Positions 2,826 through 28,886 of a DNA stretch of 64,000 nt are shown here, one piece after another. Below the pieces are notes generated by a model, which saw only the letters and a list, made by a program, of their open reading frames with translations, was not told where the DNA came from and ran no database searches. The number at the start of each line of letters is the position of its first letter. The first letter of the stretch is position 1. The translations under genes were made by a program, and so were the position numbers. Origin of the DNA: Tetracentron sinense (lineage: Eukaryota; Streptophyta; Magnoliopsida; Trochodendrales; Trochodendraceae); the NCBI GenBank assembly GCA_015143295.1, contig CM026570.1, positions 11,556,047 through 11,620,046 of the forward strand. The letters run 5' to 3'.

Positions 2826-3838
2826 AATTAGTATGTCATGGGAGTGATTCCTTAACAGTTCTAAGGTATGTTCTTGATCTTTTATTTCTTCTTCTCCTTT
2901 ATTTCTGTTTTTTCTTCTTGAAACCCTAATCTTCCAAACCCTAGCCCTCTCATTAGTGCCGCAGCCCTCCTTGAAGCATTCCTATTGCTACCATCCCACT
3001 GTACACCACCATAGCTACTGCCACAGCTCCAGATAACAGCCTGAGCCACTGCTGTAGCCCTCCTTGTGCCTATTCCATAGCCCTTACAGACAATTCCCTT
3101 GACTGCCGCAAGTCCCATACCGCCTTCCCTTGCTGCCCCTCTATCCTGACCCTTCGACTGCTCCTATCCACAGCCTTGCTGTCTCAGCCATACAGCCCTG
3201 GTTTCCTATTGCAGAATTCTTAACCCCATTCTTGATACCACATCATCCTATAACCCTGAAAAAACAGCAACCCTCCTCCAATTTTAAAACCCTAATCCTA
3301 TACAGCCCCTTGAAATCCTAGAAACGATTAGAAAATCTTCATTTAATTAAGAGCTAATCCCTAAGCTTGTGGAAGCATACACTTCCATATAACCCTCAAA
3401 TATAATTGAGGGTCGTATTGTAGGTTTGTGACGTGACCTCGAATCTTTATAAAATTGCTCTCTTGAATAATTATTTGTGATAGGAATATTATTTTATGAT
3501 TTTTCTTATTATTGTTAATCCAATCTTGATCTCAGCAGTCAGCACACTAGATTTTAGGCCATTTGTCATACATCATCGAGCCTCTGGATAACTCTATGTG
3601 GCTCTCATCCATCGAGAGAGTGAGCTAGGTAACCTTGACCAAGACATTTTTACCCTTGTTTTAATTATCAAATTTACCAAAGCTAAGGGTAATTTAGTCT
3701 TTGTGTAGGGGATCAATCATTAAATGTGGGAGATAAGAAGTATAATTAACCCTTATATTAAATAAAATGGTATTCAATACATTGGGTTAAAAAAGACTAG
3801 TGAATGTTACCAAGTTCACTAGTCTTGGTGAACACTAA

Positions 3839-5779: not shown

Positions 5780-8700
5780 TATAGGAAAATGAAACAAATT
5801 CTCTCCACATATGGAAGACAGGTCATCTTGTCAACCAAACCTATGCAGTGGATAATTGTAACCAAGAAAAGGCAGCAGACCTATTCCAGCGGCATGATGC
5901 AGAGCAGTGGCCCCTAAGTCACTGGAAGCAGTGGGATTGGCACCACACTCAACAAGATATCTGGCAGTGTCAGCATGCCCTTGCCGAGCAGCATGAAGAA
6001 GAGGAGTCTCGCCTGTAAAGCAATAATGATTTTCATAAGATAAGTAAAGATCACCTCATACTAGTACAATTGAGCTTCACCCAGAAATGTCTTGTGCTGC
6101 ATGCCATCTTAAGCTTGGCATGCTATTAAACTGGGGTAAACATATTAGTAGGCCTTGTTGTCTCTTCTAGAGTCTAAATAATGATAAAGTCATAAAGATG
6201 AGGCAAGCCAATTTTAAAATCAATTTCCCAAATCGAACAAGAAGCCGTCCATGATAATAATAATAAAAATATTCCCTTCATAAAGAATATGAGTGCTGCT
6301 AGAAGTTCATATATTTGATGAAATTGGCATTGGCCATGAAGAAGAAAAAGAGAACAAAAACAGAAAGAGGAAACGAAACCATAAGTGATCATTAATGTTC
6401 CTGCCTTCTTATCTTTTATTTTTCACTTTTTATTTTTGATCGGAAAATCAGAAATTGGAACAATAAGTGATCATTAATGTTCTCACTTCATTTTTTTTTT
6501 TATCAGTAAATAATAAATCATATTAAAAGAAAGAGAGAATTTTGATCACCTCATATCTTTTATTACGGGGTCGCCAAACTAAAACAATACAAGGGAAAAA
6601 GACAACATTGTTATTAAGGGCTAGCTAAAACATATACAATTAACGAAGTTAGAAGAATCAGTCACCACTTTGCAGTTAGATGAGACGTTAGACAACATTC
6701 TGATCACCGTCGGAGCAAAGGTTTTTAGACATAAACCATAGGAAACCTCCTACAAGTCGCTTTTCAGCAACAAAATCTAGCTGAAAGCACTAGATTCAAG
6801 AAAATCTGTCAAGTACTCTTGTTATTGTTACATTTCATAGCCCCTTACACCCTTAGGCCTTAATATAGACCTCTTAACAACCATCCTAATAATAACATGC
6901 ATTGGAAACAAAAGTTTTTTTACTCCAGTCAGCCTAAAAGACCCAAATATTCAATTCCCTATGCAACTAACTTAAAACATATACTATAGTCAACGTGGAA
7001 GACTGCAACACTTACTTTTTCCTGTGTAACTAATTTACCTTGAACTTACTCATCTAGAACTCATAAGAAACTTTGGAAATTGAAAGTCAACGCACTATCA
7101 TTGTTTGACCAAAATCAGTAACCTTTCAGTTGCTTAATGATGGCCTTCTGCTGATCTTGATCAAACTAAAACACTTCCAATAAATTCTCCAAGCTTCTAT
7201 ATATTCAAAAATCAGTCTAATCCAACAGTCAAATATTTAAAAAAAACAGCGTAGCTGTCACATTTGTATTCCTCTTCTTAGATTTAGGAATAGCATTATG
7301 TAATGTGTTTACATCAACAATTCATAATCACACTCCCCCTCAAGCTGGTGCATAAATGATATCTATACTATATGGTAATAGTATATACTATGCAAATAGG
7401 GTACCTACTTGGCATATCCCATTGCTCTCCATTCTCATTCGGTTGATGTCAAGTCATTTGTTTACTAAGACAAATAAAATACATCATTCGCTTACTTGGA
7501 CCAATAAAAAAACAAGCCCTACAAAGTGGGTCCCACTAAATAGAGTTGTCATAATTAATTATGTAAGGGATAAAATTCGTAAAAATGAGTAAAAAGAAGG
7601 GGTAAAATAGGAATTTCTCATGCTAACAAATTCTAACAATTTAGCCGACATAAGCCCACTTGGGCTATGTGCTGGCTCTCTTGAGTGTTGTCTGACAGGT
7701 GACCTCATCATGACTACACAAGTCATGATGACTCCGAATGCCTATAAATAAGCAAGAATCACCAGAAAGAATAGAAAGATGGTGTGGAAGGCAAGAGAGG
7801 AAATAAAGGGCAGAAGAAGAAGAGGAAGAAGGAGATCTGAGAAGCTTGAGTCATTCACACCCCTACCCCGAAGGGCTATGCAGGCGGCCACTCACCTGAT
7901 TCTCTCATTTTCTTTTGGTGTTATCCGGCTACTTGATGCTCTTTATGGCCTCACAATCTATTATGGTCACCGGGTTCTCTCAAATAGGCCATGAATAGTG
8001 CCAAATCCGTTGTCGCATTGTCTGTTATGAATAGTGCTGAGCTCGTTGTCCGTTGTGAGTTGCACAAGGTACCCGTTGTCTGATGCACAACGTATATGTT
8101 GTCTGAGCTACGTTGTCTGTGCCTTATCCGAGCTACGTTGTCAGAGCTACGTTGCCCGAGCTACGTTGTATGTGCCTTATCCGAGTTATGTTGTCTGAGC
8201 TACGTTGTCTGTGCCTTATCCGAGCTATGTTGTCTGAGCTACGTTGTATGTGCCTTATCCGAGCTATGTTGTCTGAGCTATGTTGTCTGAGCTACGTTGT
8301 ATGTGCCTTATCCGAGCTATGTTGTCTGAGCTACGTTGTCTGAGCCATATTCTTTGTGCCTCCTGAGTTACAATCTCCAGAGCATAACACCAGAGCTCGT
8401 CCTCAAGCGCATATACCTAGTGACCTCACGATAAGTATCTCTATACTATTATGTTCATATGTTCATGTGCTTGTGCCTTATACTGACTTTATCATCGGAG
8501 CTTATTTCAGGGTGCACACCCGCCCCCTCAGACTCATTCACAGGTGGAGTTTTGCTATCATTCCTCTACCAGCAAAGCAGCTACAGACGTGTGGCATGTA
8601 CGAGATTTTTCCCTTTCAAATTATATTAAATGTAACCCTCTCTCTCCCCTATTCGTTTCCCCAATGAAACCTCTCTCTCCCCTCCCTTCACTCTCTCAAC

Positions 8701-17164: not shown

Positions 17165-18062
17165 TGTAACGGGTAAAATTCGTAAAACCAACTCAGCGTT
17201 GTAGGACGAGCTCGTTTTTGTCGTTTTGTTCACGAAAGTGACACGTGGATACGAGCTGGGGTCACGTGCTTAAAATATAAGGGTCACACGTTGTCTGATA
17301 CACAACGGTCTCGTTGTGCGCATTACGACGTCTTTGTTCTCATGCAGTACTACGTTTCCGTTGTGACTTTGACAACGTGCTCGTTGTCTAAAGCACAACG
17401 TAAACGTTGTGCTCGTGACAACGTCGATATCGTTACGCGAACAACGAGTCCGTTGTCTCACCGACAACGATGTCGTGCTGTATTTTAAGGCATCTACGCC
17501 GTAACCGAGCTTGAGTCAACAACGAGACCGACTCGTAGGAGGAAGTGATCAGGAGGCGATCCATAATTCCGACAAGCGCGCCGAACCTGCCGTTTCGTGC
17601 CGAAAGCACTGTCTTGGCATTTAATGCTGGTCATTTATGCGTACCGTTCGATCCCGTCCGATTGGACTTATAGGAGGCTCTCACGTGTAATGCAACCAGC
17701 GGCAAATATGTCTAAGATATTTGGCAATGAGTGCAAAGACACGTGGTATGGACACCTATGGCCATCCATGGTCATCGATGGCCATACCAACCCTTGCCAT
17801 ATAAAAACCCCGTGATTTTTAATGCACGGGACACTTGTTCATTGACTCAGATCCGAGAATACGTGTTCAGTGCCTCCAGTGCCTTGCGTATTTTTCAGTG
17901 ACTGTTTTAGCGTTTACTGTTCATCATCTTCTACACTTACTGACTTTACCATCGGAGTACAGGTCAGGGTGCCACACCCTCCGTTCCAACCTTCTACCGG
18001 TAAACCAGAGCGTGGAAGGAACTGCTGCTGACGCGTGTCCGTCCGGTATTTTTCCCCTCACA
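17165..18062 (+). repeat. 5' LTR of the Tat element
   Basis: The 898-bp repeat is directly repeated at 27989-28886. It holds a TATA-like CCATATAAAAA near 17798, ABRE/G-box words (GACACGTGG near 17239 and 17739, TCACGTGC near 17262) and a dense run of CGTTGT/ACAACG words between about 17285 and 17470. The regulatory reading is inference. Confidence 0.95.
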
Positions 18063-18084: not shown

Positions 18085-18118
18085 ATAATAAACGGACCTC
18101 CCTTTGCTCTCTGTGATC

Positions 18119-20538
18119 ATGACTAATCAATCAGTAGTGTTCGGGCATGAGGATCAAACCCCTCACGCTACTTCTTTCCTACCTTCTGTCGTGCATATTC
18201 CTGGAGTCAGTCCTTCGTCTGGGCAACCAGAGAGGACCGTGCCTCCCCCTGCTGAGCTCTCTGTTTCAGATCGCATCTTGGCGATGCTGCAAGTGCAGCA
18301 GTCTGCTCTGGATCAAATCACCAGGCAGCAGCAAATGATGCAAGCGAGGCTGGAAGCGTTCGAGCATAGCAGGCTCGAAGTGGATGAAGTGCTACTGCAG
18401 AGGCCTTCCTTGAGACGTCAGTTTGACTTCTCTTCTTCTCCTTCTGCCCCGGAGAACCGTGAAACCAGGTTTGTGCTTCTTCCTACTGAATGGGATGTAA
18501 GGCAGCCTCCGGTTCGGGCAGAGCAGAGTATTCCTTCTGATCGTGTGGATTTCAGAGAAGGGACAGGAAGAGAAGACCTGAGAGTGGGTACTGGAGGTGC
18601 GGACACCCAGAAACTTGGGTAACAGCCAAGGAGGTGGAAGCTTTAATCGGTGCTCATGTTAAGAGCATGAAGGGAGGGATTCCTGACCACTTTGCTCAGT
18701 CAGCAAAGGATAACGTTGAGAACTCTCCTTTTACGGATGCCATCAACCAGTCCTATACTTCTTCCAAGTTCATAACTCCGATCTTCCCCATGTACACCGG
18801 AAAGACGGACCCGGAGGAGCATCTGTTTGACTTCAAGCACGCGATGGCTGTTTGCAATCCGGATGATGACCTGTATTGCAAGGCTTTCCCCAACAGCCTG
18901 TCGGGGGCAGCATCGAAATGGTTTCGGAACTTGCCTCCTGGTTCCATCAGCAACTTCTCGGAGCTCAGGTCGGCCTTCATTGATCGCTTCATCATCAATA
19001 AGAAGAAGAAGGCAGGTGCAGATACTCTCTTCTCTTTGAGAATGAAGCCGGCCGAATCCTTGAAGGACTTCATTTCGCGTTTCACCGATGAAGTCCACAA
19101 CATTGATAAGGTTGACGAAGCGAGCTGCATCGCTACTTTCAAGAATGCTATCCCCAAGCATTCCGAGCTCTACAAGTCCTTAGCTCTTGACTATCTTGTC
19201 AAGATGGACGAGTTGATGGTACGTGCCACTAAGTACGGGAGGTACGAGGAGGACGTATCCGTTGTGTCAGCACCGAAGCCCAGAGCGAGAGTGGTGGATG
19301 TCGTGGAGAGGACACACCGATCATCGAAGAGGAAGGAGAAGAAGCAGAGGTACGAGTCTTCGTCATCTGAGGGCTCGCCACCAAGGAAGCAGAGGGAAAG
19401 AGTTGTGTATGTGACTCAACGGGATCAGCCGGATCGGCGCCCGTTAGAAAGAAATTTTAATCAGCACCAGAGCAGGACAGAGAGACGTCCTAATGACCAG
19501 CAGGCGAGGCAGCAGTATCAGCCACGCCAAGTGCAGCCTCAAGCACAGCACGAGAGAGGCGTGCAGTCTAATGAGAGGCGATCTTTTGTAGATCGAGCCC
19601 CGCCCGTCAATTTCACGGTCAGCCCGGCGACCATCATGAGGTCAATGGAGGATCAACCATACTTCGAGTGGCCGGCGAGGGCAGTGCCAGATATTACATC
19701 GGGGCCACGGGTGCATGAGTACTGTCATTATCACAAGTGCCGTGGTCATCTCACCAACCGATGCCGTATTCTGAGAGAATACTTGGAGAGGCTTGTTCAG
19801 GAGGGGTACTTGGGAGAGTATCTTGCTTCTGACAACAGCGGTGGGGAGCGCACCAGAGAGCCGGTGTCTCAATCTCGCGGAGGGGAACCCGCCAATAATC
19901 CCAGTACCAGTGGAGGAGCCTCCTTGGGCACGATCAATGTCATTTGTCGCGTGCAAACGCCTGAAGCTGATGTGGGGAAGAACTTCAGGGCGAAGGCCAG
20001 GAAGCTGTCTCACAAGGCTGCAGTGTGCCAGGTACAAGTGCCTAGCAGAAGCGTTGAGCAGGCACTCACCTTCACTAATCTTGATCTGGCAGGGGTGATC
20101 CGGCCTCACTATGATGCTCTTGTTCTCACCATGAGAATAGGAGACTTCGACATCAAGAGAGTGCTCCTGGATTCAGGGAGCGGAGCAGACATCTTGTACC
20201 TTCATGCTTTCACTCAGATGAAGCTGGATCCTTCCGTCCTCATCCCTGCCCAGACTCCCCTGTTCGGGTTTGATGGCAGCTCGATGAAGCCTGTAGGCGA
20301 CGTTGTCTTGCCCGTTGTGGCTGGATCCGTTGTCCTCCAGACCAGGTTTTCCCTCCTGGACGCGCCGTCACCGTACAATGCCATTTTGGGTCGTTGGTGG
20401 ACCCATGAGATGAAGGCTGTCCCGTCCTCGTACTACCAGGTGTTGAAGTACCCAACGCAGGACGGACCTCAGGAGATCCGAGGTGATCAGTTGGCATCAC
20501 AAAAGTGCGATTTTCCTGCTTCCGTTGTGCCTTCGTAG
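18119..20538 (+). CDS. Retrotransposon gag-protease (Tat), frameshifted
   Basis: The reading starts at the ATG at 18119 just inside the primer site, runs to a stop at 18620, and the homologous reading continues in another frame from about 18601 (ETWVTAKEVEALIGAHVKSM), so one small indel near 18595-18605 breaks gag. The capsid-type retrotransposon gag domain spans about 18770-19160 (motif FPNSLSGAASKWFRNLPPGS). Next come a basic, glutamine-rich linker, a short cysteine/histidine cluster (CHYHKCRGHLTNRC, about 19721-19762), and the aspartic protease active site DSGSGAD at 20170-20190. A TAG at 20536-20538 ends this part; pol follows in the same frame. Gag would package element RNA and the protease would cut the polyprotein. 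Confidence 0.9.
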
Positions 20539-23500
20539 CAGTTACAGGCCGCTCCCGTTGTGGAAGAGAGCTCGGAGACATCGTTGTGCAGACCTTCCAT
20601 TAAGCCCACGAAAGCTGTCAATTTGGGAACGGAAGAAGAGCCAAAGGTGCTGCAGGTCGAGACAAGCTTGACAACGGAGGAGGAGCTCGAGCTGCTGAGT
20701 TTTCTTAGGCAGAATCTTGATATCTTTGCATGGTCTCACAAAGACATGACTGGCATCGATCCGAGTGTTATCTGTCATCACCTCAATGCTGACCCTACCA
20801 TCCCTCCAGTGAAGCAGAAACCTCGGAGGCTTGCTCCAGCTTATCATGATGCAGTGAATGAGGAGATCGACAAGCTGATCCAGTTCGGGTTCATTCAGGA
20901 GGTGCAGTACCCTGATTGGATAGCCAATGTTGTGGCTGTGCCTAAGAAGAACGGGAAGGTGAGAGTTTGCATTGACTTCACTGGTGTCAATAAGGCGTGC
21001 CCCAAGGACTTTTTTCCCATGCCAAGGATAGACAGACTCATCAACGCCACCGCTGGCCACGAGATGTTATCCTTCATGGATGGTTATTCGGGCTATAATC
21101 AGATCCTCCTGGCGGAAGCAGATCGAGAGAAGACCACCTTCATAACAGAGCGAGGTTTGTTCTGTTATCGGGTGATGCCTTTTGGCTTGAAGAATGCAGG
21201 TGCCACCTATCAGCGTCTGATGAATCTCATGTTCGGGACACTCCTTGGCAAGACGGTTGAAGTGTACATCGATGACATCGTTGTGAAGAGTCGAGTACGA
21301 GGTGCTCTAGTGGCGGACCTTGCTGAGCCTTTCTCCGTGCTGCGATCTTTCAATCTAAAGATCAACCTGGAGAAGTGCACCTTCGGAGTCACTTCAGGGA
21401 AATTTTTGGGTTACCTTGTGAGCCAGCGGAGAATTGAGGCTAATCCAACTCAAATCCGTGCTTTGCTGGATATGCCAGAGCCCAGATCGAAGAAGGAGAT
21501 CCAGAAACTGACAGGCCGGATTGCTGCGCTCAACCGGTTTATCTCCAAGTCATCCGATCGTTGCAAGCCTCTGTTCGAGCTGCTGAGGAAGGACTCCATT
21601 TTCACGTGGACTCCGGAGTGTTCCCGAGCTTTCCTTACCTTGAAGGAGTATTTAGGGTCAGCTCCTATCCTTTCGGTGCCAGAGCCAGGTGAAATCTTAT
21701 ATCTCTATTTGTCTGTTTCAGAGCAAGCCCTTTGATCCGTCCTGGTGAGGAGCTGTGATGGCGTGGAGAAGCCTGTCTACTTCATCAACAAAACCTTTCT
21801 CAAGGCGGAGTGCAATTATAGTAAGCTCGAGAAGGTGTGTCTGACTCTTGTCTTTTCTACGGAGAAGCTTCGTCCGTACTTTCATGCTCATCCTATCGTT
21901 GTCGTCACAACGTATCCTTTGAAAGTCGTGCTGGGACGACCCGAGCTGGCGGGGAGGATGTCAAAGTGGGCAGTAGCTCTGAGTGAGTTCGATATCCAGT
22001 ACCAGGCCAGGAGTTCGGAGAAGGGGCAAGCGATGACGGGTTTTCTTTCTGATTTCCCTGTGGAGGAGGAGGCAGGGAACATGGTTGTTGATCTTCGAGA
22101 GCTCCCAATCGAAGTCAACAACGGAGATGCCGCTGTGAAGGGGGCCAAGTCGTCAGAGTGGAGCGGTTGGCTGTTGTACGTGGACGGATCTTCCAATTTC
22201 AGTGGTTCAGGACTGGGCGTTGTGCTTATAAGTCCGGACAACATCAAAGTGCAGAAGATGTCACGTCTTGGGTTCACTGCCTCCAACAACGAAGCTGAGT
22301 ACGAAGCCTTACTCCTTGGGTTGGAGAGTGCACGAGAGCTGCAGATCTCCACGTTGAGAGTATTTTGTGATTCACAGCTCGTGGTGAATCAGGTGAATGG
22401 TGTTTATGAATGCAAGGACGACCGGATGAAGCAGTATGCTACTCTGGTTCGTTCTTTGTGTGAGACATTCACCGTTGTGGAGATCAGGCACACCCGGAGG
22501 GATGAGAACAGGCATGCTGACGCCTTGGCATATCTAGCTTCCATGGTGCAGGCTGACGAGTCTAAGGCTATTCTGATGGAGTTCCAGGAGTATCCTTCGA
22601 TAACTCTTCAGGCACAGCGAGAAGTGTTCTTTGTCAATCCGGTTCCGAGCTGGATGACAGGGTTGGTGGCTTATCTAAAGGATGGAGTTCTCCCTATCAG
22701 TGTGAAGGAGTCAAGGCGCATTCAGTCCAAGGCATCTCGCTATACTTTGGTACAAGGAGAATTGTTCAGAAAATCTTTTGGTGGGCCTTTGCTGAAATGC
22801 GTTCATCCAGTAGACGTGGAGAGAATACTTGCTGAGCTGCATGAAGGTATATGTGGTATTCATTCGGGCGGGAGAACCATTGCCCATCGAGCTCTGGGGC
22901 AAGGTTACTTCTGGCCTTACATGCAGGCTGATGCTCAGAAGTATGTGAAGAGGTGCAGCCAGTGTCAGCGGTTTGCTCGCTTAATTCATGCTCCAGCTCA
23001 AGAGCTCAGCACTGTATCTCAGCCTTGGCCATTTGCGCGGTGGAGACTTGACATTGTGGGACCTTTCCCGAGGGCTCCAGGGAATCTGATCTTCCTGCTA
23101 GTGGCAACTGACTACTTCTCACGGTGGATTGAAGCTGTTCCCCTTGCACGTATCAGAGAACAAGAGGTGAAGAAGTTCTTGTGGGAGCATATCATCTGCA
23201 GATTTGGCATACCGCAGTCCATCATTACTGACAACGGGAAGCAGTTCTCAGGACGTTTGATTGCCGACTTTTGTAGCGAGCTGAAGATCAAACATGTCTT
23301 CTCTTCCCCGTATTATCCTCAGGGAAATGGACTGGCCAAGGCAGCCAACAAGAATATTCTCAACGCCTTGAAGAGGAGACTGGAAGATTCGAAGGGGAAG
23401 TGGACCGCCGAGCTGCACAACGTTTTGTGGGGGTACAGAACTACTCCAAGGAGCCCTACCAATGAAACTCCTTTCTCTCTAGCGTATGGCATGGAGGCAG

Positions 23501-23889
23501 TCATTCCTACTGAGGTCAGTTTACCTACAGTGCGTTCTTGGCACAGCAAGAAGAAGGATGGAGAGAAAGACCAGAACGCAAAGCTCATGGCTATTCATCT
23601 TGATCTGCTAGAAGAGAAGCGAGAAGATGCCAGCATTCAGATGAGGAGATATCAGCAGCGATTGAGGAAGGCCTACACAAAGAAAGTACAACGGAGAGTG
23701 CTGCAAGTCGGTGATCTCGTCCTCCGAAGAGTGTTTCAGAACACAAGAGAGCTTAACAATGGCAAGTTGGGACCAAACTGGGAAGGGCCTTATATCGTAG
23801 AACGATTGGGAAGTCCTGGAGTCTGCTACTTGAAAGACTTGCAAGGTAACCTCATCTCGAAATCTTGGAACATCATGAATCTGAGGTAA
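20539..23889 (+). CDS. Retrotransposon pol: RT, two RNase H domains, integrase; defective
   Basis: In the gag frame, RT covers about 20700-21420 with FMDGYSGYNQ and the catalytic YIDD (about 21265-21276). The first RNase H (about 21750-22070) is degenerate; a TGA at 21733-21735 cuts just ahead of it, and VTTYPL stands where an Asp-containing word is usual. The second, archaeal-type RNase H (22170-22550) keeps its acidic set: YVDGSS, NNEAEYEALL, FCDSQLV and RHADALA. Integrase follows with its HHCC zinc finger (about 22840-22980), DIVGPFP and TDNGKQF, but the third catalytic position reads GNGLAKAANK (codon AAG at 23338), Lys instead of Glu. There is no chromodomain; the end is SKSWNIMNLR, as usual for Tat. 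As written it cannot make active integrase. Confidence 0.92.
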
Positions 23890-24264
23890 TTCTTTCAATA
23901 GAATCTGTGATATACTATTTACGTGCATCGATGTGCTTACAAGTTTTCGGTGATTTTACATAATCATAGTGTTCATATTTCAACATGTGATTTGCAATAT
24001 TATGTGCCTGCTCGTTATCTCTATTATTCTCCGTCTGGTTCATCAGTGTAGTATTGTGAATGTTCTGCAAGTAATTCAAATAAAATTTTGACTGAACAAG
24101 GTGCTCACAACGAACACGAGTGAATTATATAAGGATGTCATCTGAGCAAATCTAGTGGCTTATCCTAATGACATCCTCTGAGCATGTGCTTCAGAACTGA
24201 GTTACATTGCGTTCGTCTTATGAATTTTATTTGTCAGATTGCATTCACAGTGAACTACGCGAAT

Positions 24265-24580
24265 GATGTATCTGGATCAGTGCTTGCTCGTAGTGCTTGT
24301 TCATAAGTGATTGATCATAGTGTTTGCTCGCGGTGCTTGCTCGGAGTGTTAGCTCATGGTGCCCTGATCGTAGTGCTTTGCTCATAGTGAACGCTCGTAG
24401 TGCTTTGATCGTAGTGCTTGTTCATAAGTGATTGATCGTAGTGTTTGCTCGTGGTGCTTGCTCGTAGTGTTAGCTCGTAGTGCTCTATTCGTAGTACTCT
24501 ACTTACTGCTTGTTCGTTGTGCTTTGATCATAGCGTTCTATTCATAGTGTTTTGCTCGTAGTGCTTTGATCAAAATAGTT
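24265..24580 (+). repeat. Imperfect tandem repeats (GCTCGTAGTGCTT-type) 3' of pol
   Basis: About 25 variants of a 10-14 bp word around TCGTAGTG follow one another, with a longer-period copy (GTGCTTGTTCATAAGTGATTGATC twice, at about 24294 and 24416). Such arrays between pol and the 3' LTR are known in Tat/Ogre elements and can seed satellites. Confidence 0.85.
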
Positions 24581-24905
24581 TATTTAGTGTACAACAGTTA
24601 TAATTTCATAAACATTCAAACATTCACATAGCGAAGCACCGCATTAACATCAGTACGGTGAATTGTGAAAAATCATTCAACTACTTATGTTGTGTTCTTT
24701 CTTATTCTGTGTGCATGCGTTGTACTATGCTACGAGGTGAAAAGAAGAGCAAACATAAGAAAGAGGAGCGATCTATTCATTTCAAAGACCCATTTCTGGG
24801 CCATTACAGTGATAAACTCCCATAAGAGGGGAAAAGAAGAATTTACATCGTCAACAGAGAGAAGCAGGAACATAAGGAAGAGCAGGGGATCAGAGGAGTA
24901 GCAGA

Positions 24906-27383
24906 TCAGACGAGCTCAAGGTCAGCATCTGTCGTCATTGCAGCAGGGGCAGAGATAGGGGCTTCAGCAGTTGGGGCTTCAACCGGAGTGACTTCATCGG
25001 TAGCAGGAGGAAGTTCTGGGGCAGCTGGCTCGGAGGATGGCTCGGTAGGGAGGGGTGCAGGACCTTCAAGAAAGTGAGGCTGCTCATCGCCTTGCACCTC
25101 GGGCTCGTTGTCGAGCTCGATCAGTTCTTTGCTTTGAAGCTCGGAGAACGTGGTGGCGTCCTCTTCATTGTCTTCCTTCAGGCGGCCTTGTTGGCGGAGT
25201 GATTCGAGAACCTCCTTCTCGGTCTCAGCCCTATCTTCGTCTAAGAGCGTGTCCAGCTGAGACTGATAATGTTGCTGTAGTCTCAGGGTCACGGACCTCT
25301 CAGTGTCCTCTTGAGTTTTCTTGGCCTCCTCGAGCTCCTCTGCCAGTGCTAACCTGGCTACCTCGGTTTCCTCCAGCTGTCTGCCCAAAACTTGGGAGAC
25401 ATGCTCAAATTCGCTGATGCGTACAACAGCGTTCTCTACCTCCTGCTTGGCCTTCTTTTCGGCCTCCTTTGCTGATCGTGCCTCAGCCTCAGCCTTTTCC
25501 CGTACCTTGGTGGCCGTGTTTAGCCTTACCTCAGCACGAACGGTGTCAGCCTTGGCTTGAGACAGATCAAAGTCTGCCTTGAGTCTCTCTTCAGCAAGAG
25601 CCTGCTCCAACGTCCCCGTCCTGTCTCTCCAGTAATTGATCCCGTCTCGCAGCTGAGTGTACTTATCCTGGCTGCGATCACAGAGCTCTTGCACGAGCGT
25701 GTTCATCTGCAAGGAAATGTCTGGGCGTTAGCACAACGAGAAGTAATATTTCAACAGTTGAGGTAGGAGACGAGGGAGGAGAAGCTTACTGTCGCCACAG
25801 TTTGGCAGGTGGCGTAGGACAGTTCGGACAGATGGAGTTGGCTGACTTCAGCGATGTCTCGCGGCAGCCTCATCGCGTAAGTTAGAGCTCGGGCTGCCGT
25901 CTCCGAGCTCTTCACCGATTCGTTCACGGTCGGTACCCCGAACCGAGAGAAATCGGGTGACCAGTCCTGAGCGGAGGATGGTAGCATACAAGCAGGGAGA
26001 CTCGTTGCGCCAGCTTCTGTTGCGGCCAAGGCAACGACAGCGGAGCTCGTGCTGGCTGGGGCAGTTACAGCTCGAGAAGGGCCAGGCGCCGAGCTGACCT
26101 AGGGCACTGCCGTTGTCACCTCTGCTCTTGGAATTAATGGAGGAACGACAGAGGTGGAGGGGGGAGCAGCAATGGCTGCGGTCTATTTCTCCAGGCGTTT
26201 GTCCGCCTTGGCCTTCTTTCTGGCCTCGAACTCGGTCTGGGTAGGCATCTTTCTCTTCGGGTCAGCAGGCGCTGTACCCTTGGAAGAATGGTTCCTCTTC
26301 TTCTTCGGCGGCGGTGGCGGTGGAGGTGGCTGAACCGCAGGGCGAGCAGACCTCGGCTTCCTGCTTAGTGGAGGTGGGTTTGTGTCGGCCATGTCTTCTT
26401 CTTCTTCTTCTTCGGTTAGATGAAGTGCTGGTGAAGGTGCGGAAGTGGAGGCGCCCTGTTGCTGTTGCTGTTGCTGTGGTTGTTGTTGAGTAGTCGCTGG
26501 GGTGCTGGAGGAGACCCGCGTGCCGAGCTCGAGTGGTTTCCACCTGATGTATTCTCCACCTCGAGCACGGCGGATACCGGTAAGGAGGCCTTCTTCTTCT
26601 GGGGCCAACTTCTTGTACGAGAACTTCTTCGGGTCGACTGCACACAGGAAAACAAAGTGAGTACAACGAGAGAATTAGCAGGACGAGAGCATACAACGTA
26701 CAACGAGAAAGGAGTCAGGACAATGGTGCACAACGGACAACGGATGACTATAGTGGTATACCTGCTTCCGCTCGGAAAACGTTGGGGACCGTGGAATTCT
26801 CTGCTCTCCAGCCGCCAGAGATAACGAAAGGAGTGGCTTTCCATTTTCTTTCTCTATCGAGAATGCCTGAGACGAGCTCTGGGTATCGGGGTTTCTTATT
26901 CCACGAATAGTAGGAGTACAAACCATCGTCATTGCCTCGGCATCTGACGGCATGGAAGAAGTGGAATAGGTGCCTGGCCTCTATCGGGTATCCGTCCTTG
27001 ATGAATTTGATCATCATGGACATGTATTTGTGAAAGCCTGGGTGCATTTGTCCCGGTGCGAGTTGCAGGGTGGACAGAACTTCATCCAAGACAGGATGAA
27101 GAGGGAAGCGTAGGCCAGCCTCAAGCTGGGAGAGATAGACAACGGTACAGGCAGAGCGCCTGTCTACGACAGCATCATCTCGCTTGAAATGGAGATTGAC
27201 GTTGGGAGGGAAGTCGAAACGTTCCCTGTAACGGTTCAGATGTGCCAACTGGTGCTGGCGCAGAGCTGAGGATTTTTCAATATAGGCACCATGAGGTGCA
27301 CTACCCGTGCAACTGGCCTCATCATCGGAAGAGCCTCTAACTTCTTCTAACCTAGCGGGTTCTACGGGAACGATGGTAGCCAT
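24906..27383 (-). CDS. Antisense extra gene of the Tat element (three exons, two stops)
   Basis: Exons 27383-26762, 26637-25790 and 25706-24906 join in frame through GT-AG introns of 124 and 83 bp, giving about 756 codons. Exon 1 (MATIVPVEPARLEEVRGSSD onward) resembles the plant retroelement domain that Pfam calls putative gypsy-type transposon (Transposase_28; recognition from memory). Exon 2 holds a polyglutamine run, an acidic run, a polyproline run followed by KKKR, and basic tracts. Exon 3 is a long heptad-like coiled coil (about 25700-25150), then a Pro/Ala/Glu-rich tail ending DADLELV. Two in-frame TAG codons (26183-26185, 26099-26101) break exon 2. A TATA-like box lies about 260 bp upstream on the same strand. 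Function is unknown; related extra ORFs are documented in the Tat lineage. Confidence 0.75.
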
Positions 27384-27640
27384 GGTGATTGGAAGAAACA
27401 GAGAAGAGGGACAAGAACAACAGAGTATGCGCAGAGCAGAACCACTCTGGGAATCAGAGAAGAGAGAAAGGGAAAAACAGTAAGAAATAACAAGGGAAAG
27501 GGTGAAGAACGTACCGAACCGAAGAGAACTCAGAGAGATTGTTGAAGAGCTTGAGGAAGATGAACTTTCGGTTGAGAAGAGAATTCGGCAGAGTAACAGT
27601 GCTTAATGAAACAGGGTGAGAGAGAAGGAGGATTCGATGG

Positions 27641-27651
27641 GATTTTATAAG
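27641..27651 (-). promoter_or_regulatory. TATA-like box for the antisense gene
   Basis: The minus strand reads GCTTATAAAATC about 260 bp upstream of the antisense start codon, inside the internal region and not in the LTR. This would make the antisense gene independent of LTR transcription. Inference from position and sequence only. Confidence 0.5.
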
Positions 27652-27975
27652 CATCTCAGGTTTGTGAAAGTACACCACTACCCTTCATCTGAGCCGTACA
27701 CCTGTATCAACGAAAATAAGAGCAGTGGCAAGATCGTCTTTTCACCAAGTAGAGTAACCGTCAGGGTCATTAAAGCGTTTTCGAAATTCAAATCGGCGAT
27801 GATGACAGCCTGTCCGCATTAAAGAGACGTGACGGTTCGCACGCGTAACCAGCTGGCGTGAACGGTCGACCTTTTCAATAAGCGTTTAAAGCACGCAACG
27901 TTTCGTCTTCCGGGGTGGTGCCAGGTATGATCTTTTGTCCGTTTATGACGCTTCGAACTACGTTCCAAAGCATCA

Positions 27976-27988
27976 TAAAGGGGCAAAT
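27976..27988 (+). other. Polypurine tract of the Tat element
   Basis: The purine-rich word AAAGGGGCAAAT ends directly at the TG of the 3' LTR, the position needed for plus-strand priming. Confidence 0.7.
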
Positions 27989-28886
27989 TGTAACGGGTAA
28001 AATTCGTAAAACCAACTCAGCGTTGTAGGACGAGCTCGTTTTTGTCGTTTTGTTCACGAAAGTGACATGTGGATACGAGCTGGGGTCACGTGCTTAAAAT
28101 ATAAGGGTCACACGTTGTCTGATACACAACGGTCTCGTTGTGCGCATTACGACGTCTTTGTTCTCATGCAGTACTACGTTTCCGTTGTGGCTTTGATAAC
28201 GTGCTCGTTGTCTAAAGCACAACGTAAACGTTGTGCTCGTGACAACGTCGATATCGTTACGCGAACAACGAGTCCGTTGTCTCACCGACAACGATGTCGT
28301 GCTGTATTTTAAGGCATCTACGCCGTAACCGAGCTTGAGTCAACAACGAGACCGACTCGTAGGAGGAAGTGATCAGGAGGCGATCCATAATTCCGACAAG
28401 CGCGCCGAACCTGCCGTTTCGTGCCGAAAGCACTGTCTTGACATTTAATGCTGGTCATTTCTGCGTACCGTTCGATCCCGTCCGATTGGACTTATAGGAG
28501 GCTCTCACGTGTAATGCAACCGGCGGCAAATATGTCTAAGATATTTGGCAATGAGTGCAAAGACACGTGGTATGGACACCTATGGCCATCCATGGTCATC
28601 GATGGCCATACCAACCCTTGCCCTATAAAAACCCCGTGATTTTTAGTGCACGGGACACTTGTTCATTGACTCAGATCCGAGAATACGTGTTCAGTGCCTC
28701 CAGTGCCTTGCGTATTTTTCAGTGACTGTTTTAGCGTTTACTGTTCATCATCTTCTACACTTACTGACTTTACCATCGGAGTACAGGTCAGGGTGCCACA
28801 CCCTCCGCTCCAACCTTCTACCGGTAAACCAGAGCGTGGAAGGAACTGCCGCTGACGCGTGTCCGTCCGGTATTTTTCCCCTCACA
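27989..28886 (+). repeat. 3' LTR of the Tat element
   Basis: The same length as the 5' LTR (898 bp), with about 10 base differences counted by eye and no gaps. One change turns the ABRE-like ACACGTGG of the 5' copy into ACATGTGG. It is followed by the CCTAC target duplication. Confidence 0.95.

Follow-up and report, generated by a model that had tools for sequence, protein, structure and literature searches.

A 64,000-nucleotide stretch of the Tetracentron sinense genome (the window) contains an LTR retrotransposon of the Retand type (Tat lineage) that carries a protein-coding antisense accessory gene of three exons, and the codons of this gene are under constraint throughout the family. Judging from the conserved sequence signals, there is good support for transcription of this gene from a TATA promoter of its own, situated in the internal region next to the 3' LTR, and for splicing of the transcript. 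The antisense protein may regulate or assist the element, and arrays of the motif CGTTGT/ACAACG in the LTRs make this proposal more specific. With odds that we place close to even, the best explanation of the whole is a coding, spliced antisense gene with its own promoter, the product of which would be a trans regulator most likely acting at the CGTTGT/ACAACG array. The coordinates of all features are listed in Table 1.

Table 1. Features of the retrotransposon and its antisense gene (positions are those of the window)
Feature	Coordinates	Strand	Remarks
5' LTR	17165..18062	+	898 bp, TG...CA; CCTAC directly outside
Inverted CGTTGT/ACAACG array, 5' LTR	17289..17469	.	Spacers of 4 and 7 bp; 14 sites in whole LTR
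gag-pol region	18092..23889	+	gag, RT, RNase H, RVT_3-type RNase H, integrase; broken in window copy
Degenerate 13/27-bp tandem array	24279..24568	.	
Possible poly(A) signal AATAAA	24579..24584	-	Downstream of exon 3; sequence match only
Exon 3	24906..25706	-	Probable coiled coil, then Pro/Ala/Glu-rich tail; stop TGA
Intron 2	25707..25789	-	83 nt, GT-AG; one CGTTGT immediately before a CTAAC branch-like site (by eye)
Exon 2	25790..26637	-	848 nt; Q/E/P-rich linker, basic KKKR cluster
Intron 1	26638..26761	-	124 nt, GT-AG; five CGTTGT, all in antisense-RNA orientation
Exon 1	26762..27383	-	622 nt, phase 1; ATG at 27383; Transposase_28 (TRP28) domain
TATAAAA box of antisense gene	27643..27649	-	266 bp before ATG
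3' LTR	27989..28886	+	CCTAC flank same as on 5' side
Inverted CGTTGT/ACAACG array, 3' LTR	28113..28293	.	13 sites in whole LTR; 464-644 bp upstream of antisense TATA box

The two LTRs of the window copy are identical at 888 of 898 positions. Using Pfam profiles, we found the domain order gag, RT_RNaseH, RVT_3 (residues 150-266), and integrase domains. The same order is given for Ogre and Retand in the accessible part of PMC6317226, according to which a second RNase H (aRH) between RH and integrase marks both groups, and we infer that the RVT_3-type domain is this aRH. The stretch from pol to the 3' LTR spans 4,099 bp (23890-27988) in the window copy, within the range of 2,933-6,566 bp stated for Retand elements in the portion of PMC11963269 available, where antisense TRP28 ORFs are described as marking these elements. 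Because this 4.1-kb region, the antisense TRP28 region, and the tandem array all match that partial description, the element fits Retand; a second RNase H, an antisense TRP28 region between pol and the 3' LTR, and a long pol-3' LTR region are each present, as in Retand elements of the Tat lineage of Ty3/gypsy. The window copy itself is decayed. Its pol is interrupted by in-frame stops at 20536-20538 and 21733-21735, and the reading frame of gag shifts near 18541-18622.

The original prediction for this locus, that three minus-strand exons are joined in phase through GT-AG introns, was confirmed: the joined exons comprise 756 codons in exact phase, and the splice dinucleotides at each of the four sites are kept in 20 of 20 near copies in the same genome. 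The TATA-like box placed about 260 bp upstream, in the internal region, is likewise present. By contrast, the joined frame is not open in the window copy, as exon 2 contains two in-frame TAG codons (26185-26183 and 26101-26099) that had been overlooked, and this copy cannot make the full antisense protein. We considered an extra intron that would remove both TAG codons, and prefer decay because the window-frame codon columns are free of in-frame stops in 9 of the 20 near copies; the other 11 have at least one, with frameshifting gaps not counted.

Further copies of the gene were sought in the host plant genome (1.16 Gb). For exon 1, we scored 150 matches (window included) of 2,692 candidates, with 90-100% identity over nearly the full length, and for exon 3, 144 matches of 2,711 candidates, with 87-100% identity. 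By our own count, stops are present in 19 of the 150 exon-1 and 27 of the 144 exon-3 matches, both lists favoring intact copies. The 20 near copies were drawn from the top 30 of the 150 exon-1 matches. Since these were ranked by similarity to the exon-1 protein, the figures for exon 1 lean toward intact copies, while the choice made no use of exons 2 and 3. The TATA box and the ATG are each kept in 19 of the 20 near copies, and the copy lacking the TATA box (L049, the same copy as L024) has a match to the window that begins at base 385 of the reference.

The codon-substitution test across the 20 copies supports constraint in the antisense frame, with dN/dS point estimates of 0.13, 0.37, and 0.21 for exons 1, 2, and 3 versus noncoding pseudo-dN/dS values of 0.48-0.81 and, in one frame, 1.16. 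Integrase of the near copies has a dN/dS of 0.16. The mirrored sense frame of exons 1 to 3 echoes the antisense values (0.19, 0.48, and 0.30). Gaps were counted per copy relative to the window, and those that are not a multiple of three make up 0/0 in exon 1, 7/41 in exon 2, and 9/17 in exon 3, with 12/12 in intron 1, 37/39 in intron 2, and 48/53 in the 3' flank; the corresponding counts are 30/50 for the 5' UTR, 46/50 for the upstream stretch, 124/140 for the tandem array, 13/16 for the spacer, and 10/16 for integrase. Thus, the keeping of frame by gaps is clear for exon 2 (34/41) and not for exon 3 (8/17). Pooling exons 2 and 3 (16/58 frame-breaking gaps) against the introns and the 3' flank (97/104) gives a Fisher p of 2e-18, a value that is overstated because shared gaps are counted repeatedly, and that leaves out the 5' UTR, upstream stretch, tandem array, spacer, and integrase.

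We also compared replacement/silent counts between variants shared among copies and singletons. The proportion of replacements is lower among shared variants in exon 1 (8/27 versus 44/44, p 0.008) and exon 3 (36/58 versus 90/53, p 3e-4), while the difference is not significant in exon 2 (56/57 versus 136/102, p 0.21). Pooled noncoding sequence leans the same way as the exons (62/35 versus 205/80, p 0.16). In our reading, selection acts as long as lineages transpose, and copies decay neutrally once inserted. Altogether, the expectation that exon borders and frames would be conserved family-wide withstood the comparison of copies within this genome, in which the borders, the TATA box, and codon constraint are kept.

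Exon 1 of the window copy matches PF04195 (Transposase_28) with an E value of 4.3e-5 and 24.1 bits, below the curated cut-off of 26.2. This is the best match of the exon pieces of the window gene, none of which scores above the cut-off of any Pfam family; the profile search listed 23 matches elsewhere in the genome that pass the PF04195 cut-off. The TRP28 domain is predicted to bind DNA, as stated in the part of PMC11963269 available. Exon 2 encodes a Q/E/P-rich linker with basic clusters. The long coiled coil that had been predicted in exon 3 is probable, with modest support: based on a home-made heptad score, the value for exon 3 residues 1-185 was reached in 8 of 300 shuffles and that for the tail in 47 of 300. 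AlphaFold2 applied to exon 1 alone gave a model too poor for use (pLDDT 37.7). Among PDB sequences, none matched at E values up to 10, and no relatives were found among viral contigs.

The layout extends to more distant relatives. Eight divergent loci of ~3.2 kb each, the best of the 23 listed matches to the Pfam model, are 51-74% identical to the window in exon 1. Exon 1 is found in all eight, piece 2a in seven, piece 2b in five, and exon 3 in five, with the order kept and with stops within several of the exon pieces. By eye, exon 1 is followed by CCAG|GTAA in L002, L003, L005, L006, and L008, and all five loci that have exon 3 show an AG directly before it. In six of the eight loci (L002, L003, L004, L005, L007, and L008; counted without a chance control), a TATA box precedes the ATG by 219-282 bp, while L006 has none within 600 bp of the ATG and L001 is ambiguous. 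No intronless copies were detected with a joined-exon query, which was split at the intron 1 junction in 40 of 40 scored places of 616 candidates. The RNA that a retroelement reverse-transcribes is the sense RNA, in which antisense introns are not substrates for splicing. Because the introns read CT-AC in this intermediate, they are inherited rather than lost, and the gene is an example of introns being retained by a retroelement through their antisense orientation. Antisense-intron reporters rest on the same principle, as described in the accessible portion of PMC12786077.

The second conserved feature of the element is the array in its LTRs. The 5' LTR contains 14 CGTTGT/ACAACG sites, compared with 1.3 expected and a maximum of 6 in 300 simulations. 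Sites at LTR positions 125-305 alternate in orientation, and the 4- and 7-bp spacers between them differ in letters. Using an alignment of LTRs from 28 of 29 copies (L024 yielded no LTR and was excluded), we counted differences from the window at 22/1822 positions in motif columns, 360/3158 in spacers, and 1043/19369 in the remaining LTR, where motif divergence is somewhat lowered as the window copy itself served to define the motif columns. Sets of random 6-bp blocks were equally conserved in 10 of 5000 draws, and a gap falls inside the array in 3 of the 28 LTRs. Inverted pairs within 30 bp are spaced 10 or 13 bp apart in the 3' LTR of the window and in L002, L003, L004, L005, and L007; a few different distances occur in L006, and the only pair of L008 is at 28. 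In L006, a direct ACAACG array with a 26-bp period (2968-3129) lies beside the inverted one. The array is absent nearby in two of the eight divergent gene copies. In the stretch examined for L001, no CGTTGT occurs outside the exon-1 match and none upstream, and L008 has three scattered CGTTGT and no clear array of another motif in 2.6 kb upstream, although the LTR start falls there. In the window, no CGTTGT is present in the antisense promoter region (27384-27988).

Genome-wide, the spaced pattern ACAACG-N4-CGTTGT-N7-ACAACG has 20,945 matches (10,419 + 10,526, overlapping placements included), whereas the reversed control pattern has 0 and the pattern with N5 instead of N4 has 79, many with one spacer type. 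From 100 listed places, we grouped 30 arrays by eye, of which 12 form six pairs separated by 10-11 kb and 2 form a closer pair (L071). All six pairs, 10.2-10.9 kb apart and picked for this element-like distance, which favors full-length elements of this kind, carry the antisense gene. In the five pairs that were fetched, the gene is inside on one side, with exon 1 being 51-90% identical and exon 2 pieces present; the sixth contains an exon-1 match from the genome search. The L071 pair (G000:C1:401900-406300) is 3.1 kb apart and belongs to a compact LTR-type element that has kept the array. It has a direct repeat of at least 1.3 kb that is 95.7% identical and open frames of up to 298 codons; tblastn gave no match to gag, RT, RNase H/integrase, or the antisense exons of the window. 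Possibly, L071 is a non-autonomous partner. A remnant in the left flank of the window (7561-8623) matches L071, and 12 of the 14 CGTTGT in this flank are at 8008-8334 within the remnant, 11 of them in one orientation.

The motif is also present in the antisense gene and the coding region. All CGTTGT in the window introns have one orientation, and intron motif columns differ less among copies than other columns (5/596 versus 127/1678 and 0/120 versus 124/1344). Given this uniform orientation in introns and the branch-like site that can directly adjoin the motif, a role in splicing is possible. The gag-pol region (18092-23889) contains 18 CGTTGT/ACAACG versus 1.6 expected under a first-order model, and motif columns in the integrase part are mildly more conserved (10/360 versus 799/16831 differences).

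With its TRP28 domain, basic cluster, and coiled coil, the antisense protein could be a nuclear, self-associating regulator, and its target in trans may be DNA of the element itself, with the CGTTGT/ACAACG array as the most likely site. The mechanism that we prefer would be binding of the array by a regulator. As a TATA box follows the array in the 5' LTR and the array of the 3' LTR is upstream of the antisense TATA box, a single protein bound there could activate both promoters or release them from silencing. The array resembles a docking strip for a trans-acting protein, perhaps read in a dimeric or cooperative fashion, with the element's TRP28/coiled-coil protein and a host factor as candidate readers. 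Genomic linkage, the intron sites (as for VANC), the predicted DNA binding of TRP28, and the nuclear location of the gene23 product argue for the element's protein, and the logic would resemble that of VANC anti-silencing proteins or retroviral accessory trans-regulators. We propose only tentatively, and regard as rather doubtful in all its parts, a full circuit in which the spliced antisense gene yields a self-associating TRP28 protein that reads ACAACG-N4-CGTTGT palindromes on a 23-bp LTR grid together with intronic CGTTGT, and activates or unsilences the element and, in trans, compact partners that have retained the array but lack its genes. If true, a VANC-like system would have arisen independently in LTR retrotransposons.

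A quite plausible rival, to which we give somewhat less than an even chance, accepts the antisense gene as coding and regards the array as an enhancer bound by a host transcription factor, with TRP28 doing another job, e.g., bringing the integration complex into the nucleus. In plant elements, the enhancers of LTRs commonly serve as sites for host factors, and the array is missing near L001 and L008 even though these copies have the gene. Nuclear transport of the integration complex is named as a possible role in PMC7264820. The rival is opposed by the finding that the six array pairs 10-11 kb apart all carry the gene, although their choice favored such elements, and by the conservation of the motif in the gene's own introns, as for VANC targets in the accessible part of PMC5735166.

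The two remaining explanations concern whether the protein matters at all. The antisense RNA itself might be the agent, by way of dsRNA, siRNA, or transcriptional interference, with the protein being incidental; sense and antisense transcripts would overlap by ~3 kb, and PMC7264820 names this possibility, but the constraint falls on codons of the antisense frame, and we consider this reading improbable. Even less credible, to the point of being nearly negligible, is that the exons represent open frames arisen by chance or a functionless, decayed capture of a host gene. The two exon 2 stops of the window copy and the in-frame stops in 11 of the 20 other copies are compatible with it, whereas near and divergent copies alike keep the exon borders and show codon constraint, and matches to exons 1 and 3 were scored in large numbers (150 and 144) genome-wide. 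Chance ORFs are further opposed by splice-site conservation, the dN/dS values, and the shared/singleton comparison. Our preferred reading is still that of a coding antisense gene with a regulatory product.

In the parts available, PMC11963269 and PMC7264820 already report TRP28 genes on the antisense strand, a promoter dedicated to antisense transcription, and a product located in the nucleus. There, the role of Retand antisense genes is posed as an open question, and PMC7264820 calls for a search for antisense spliced transcripts. In a literature search that reached little of the subscription literature, we found no description of a single gene that joins TRP28 and coiled-coil exons through conserved introns and no recognizable account of a spaced CGTTGT array in LTRs. 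The three-exon layout, together with a candidate DNA target that has a strict spacing rule, makes the role of Retand antisense genes testable.

Among retroviruses, HBZ of HTLV-1 is a spliced, antisense, nuclear retroelement product with a coiled-coil-type domain, a bZIP protein made from the 3' LTR. Unlike HBZ, the window gene has its TATA box in the internal region and encodes a TRP28 domain. HBZ is also named in the accessible text of PMC11963269 (Vicient 2025). As far as that text goes, the Retand antisense TRP28 ORFs described in it resemble the window gene in lying antisense between pol and the 3' LTR, in having the PF04195 domain and tandem arrays, and, in some clusters, in Smc-like antisense coding. 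The study works by ORFs, and the word "intron" is absent from its text, whereas in the window a single gene with conserved introns encodes TRP28, linker, and coiled coil in its exons; the available portion mentions no LTR array. The maize element Grande offers a precedent in gene23 (Gomez-Orte 2013, as told in parts of PMC7264820 and PMC11963269), an accessory gene in antisense that has a promoter of its own and encodes a nuclear product, and this precedent, as told in PMC7264820, together with the conserved TATA box, is why we describe the window gene as probably separately promoted. VANC proteins of VANDAL DNA transposons, as presented in the accessible part of PMC5735166, are associated with a short motif that is dense in noncoding DNA of the transposon, including introns of the transposon's genes, as is the case in the window element. 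VANC acts in trans with proven binding, while both are proposals for the window element, and VANDAL is a DNA transposon in which the VANC21 sites have the same orientation, whereas the sites in the window LTRs are inverted and have fixed spacing.
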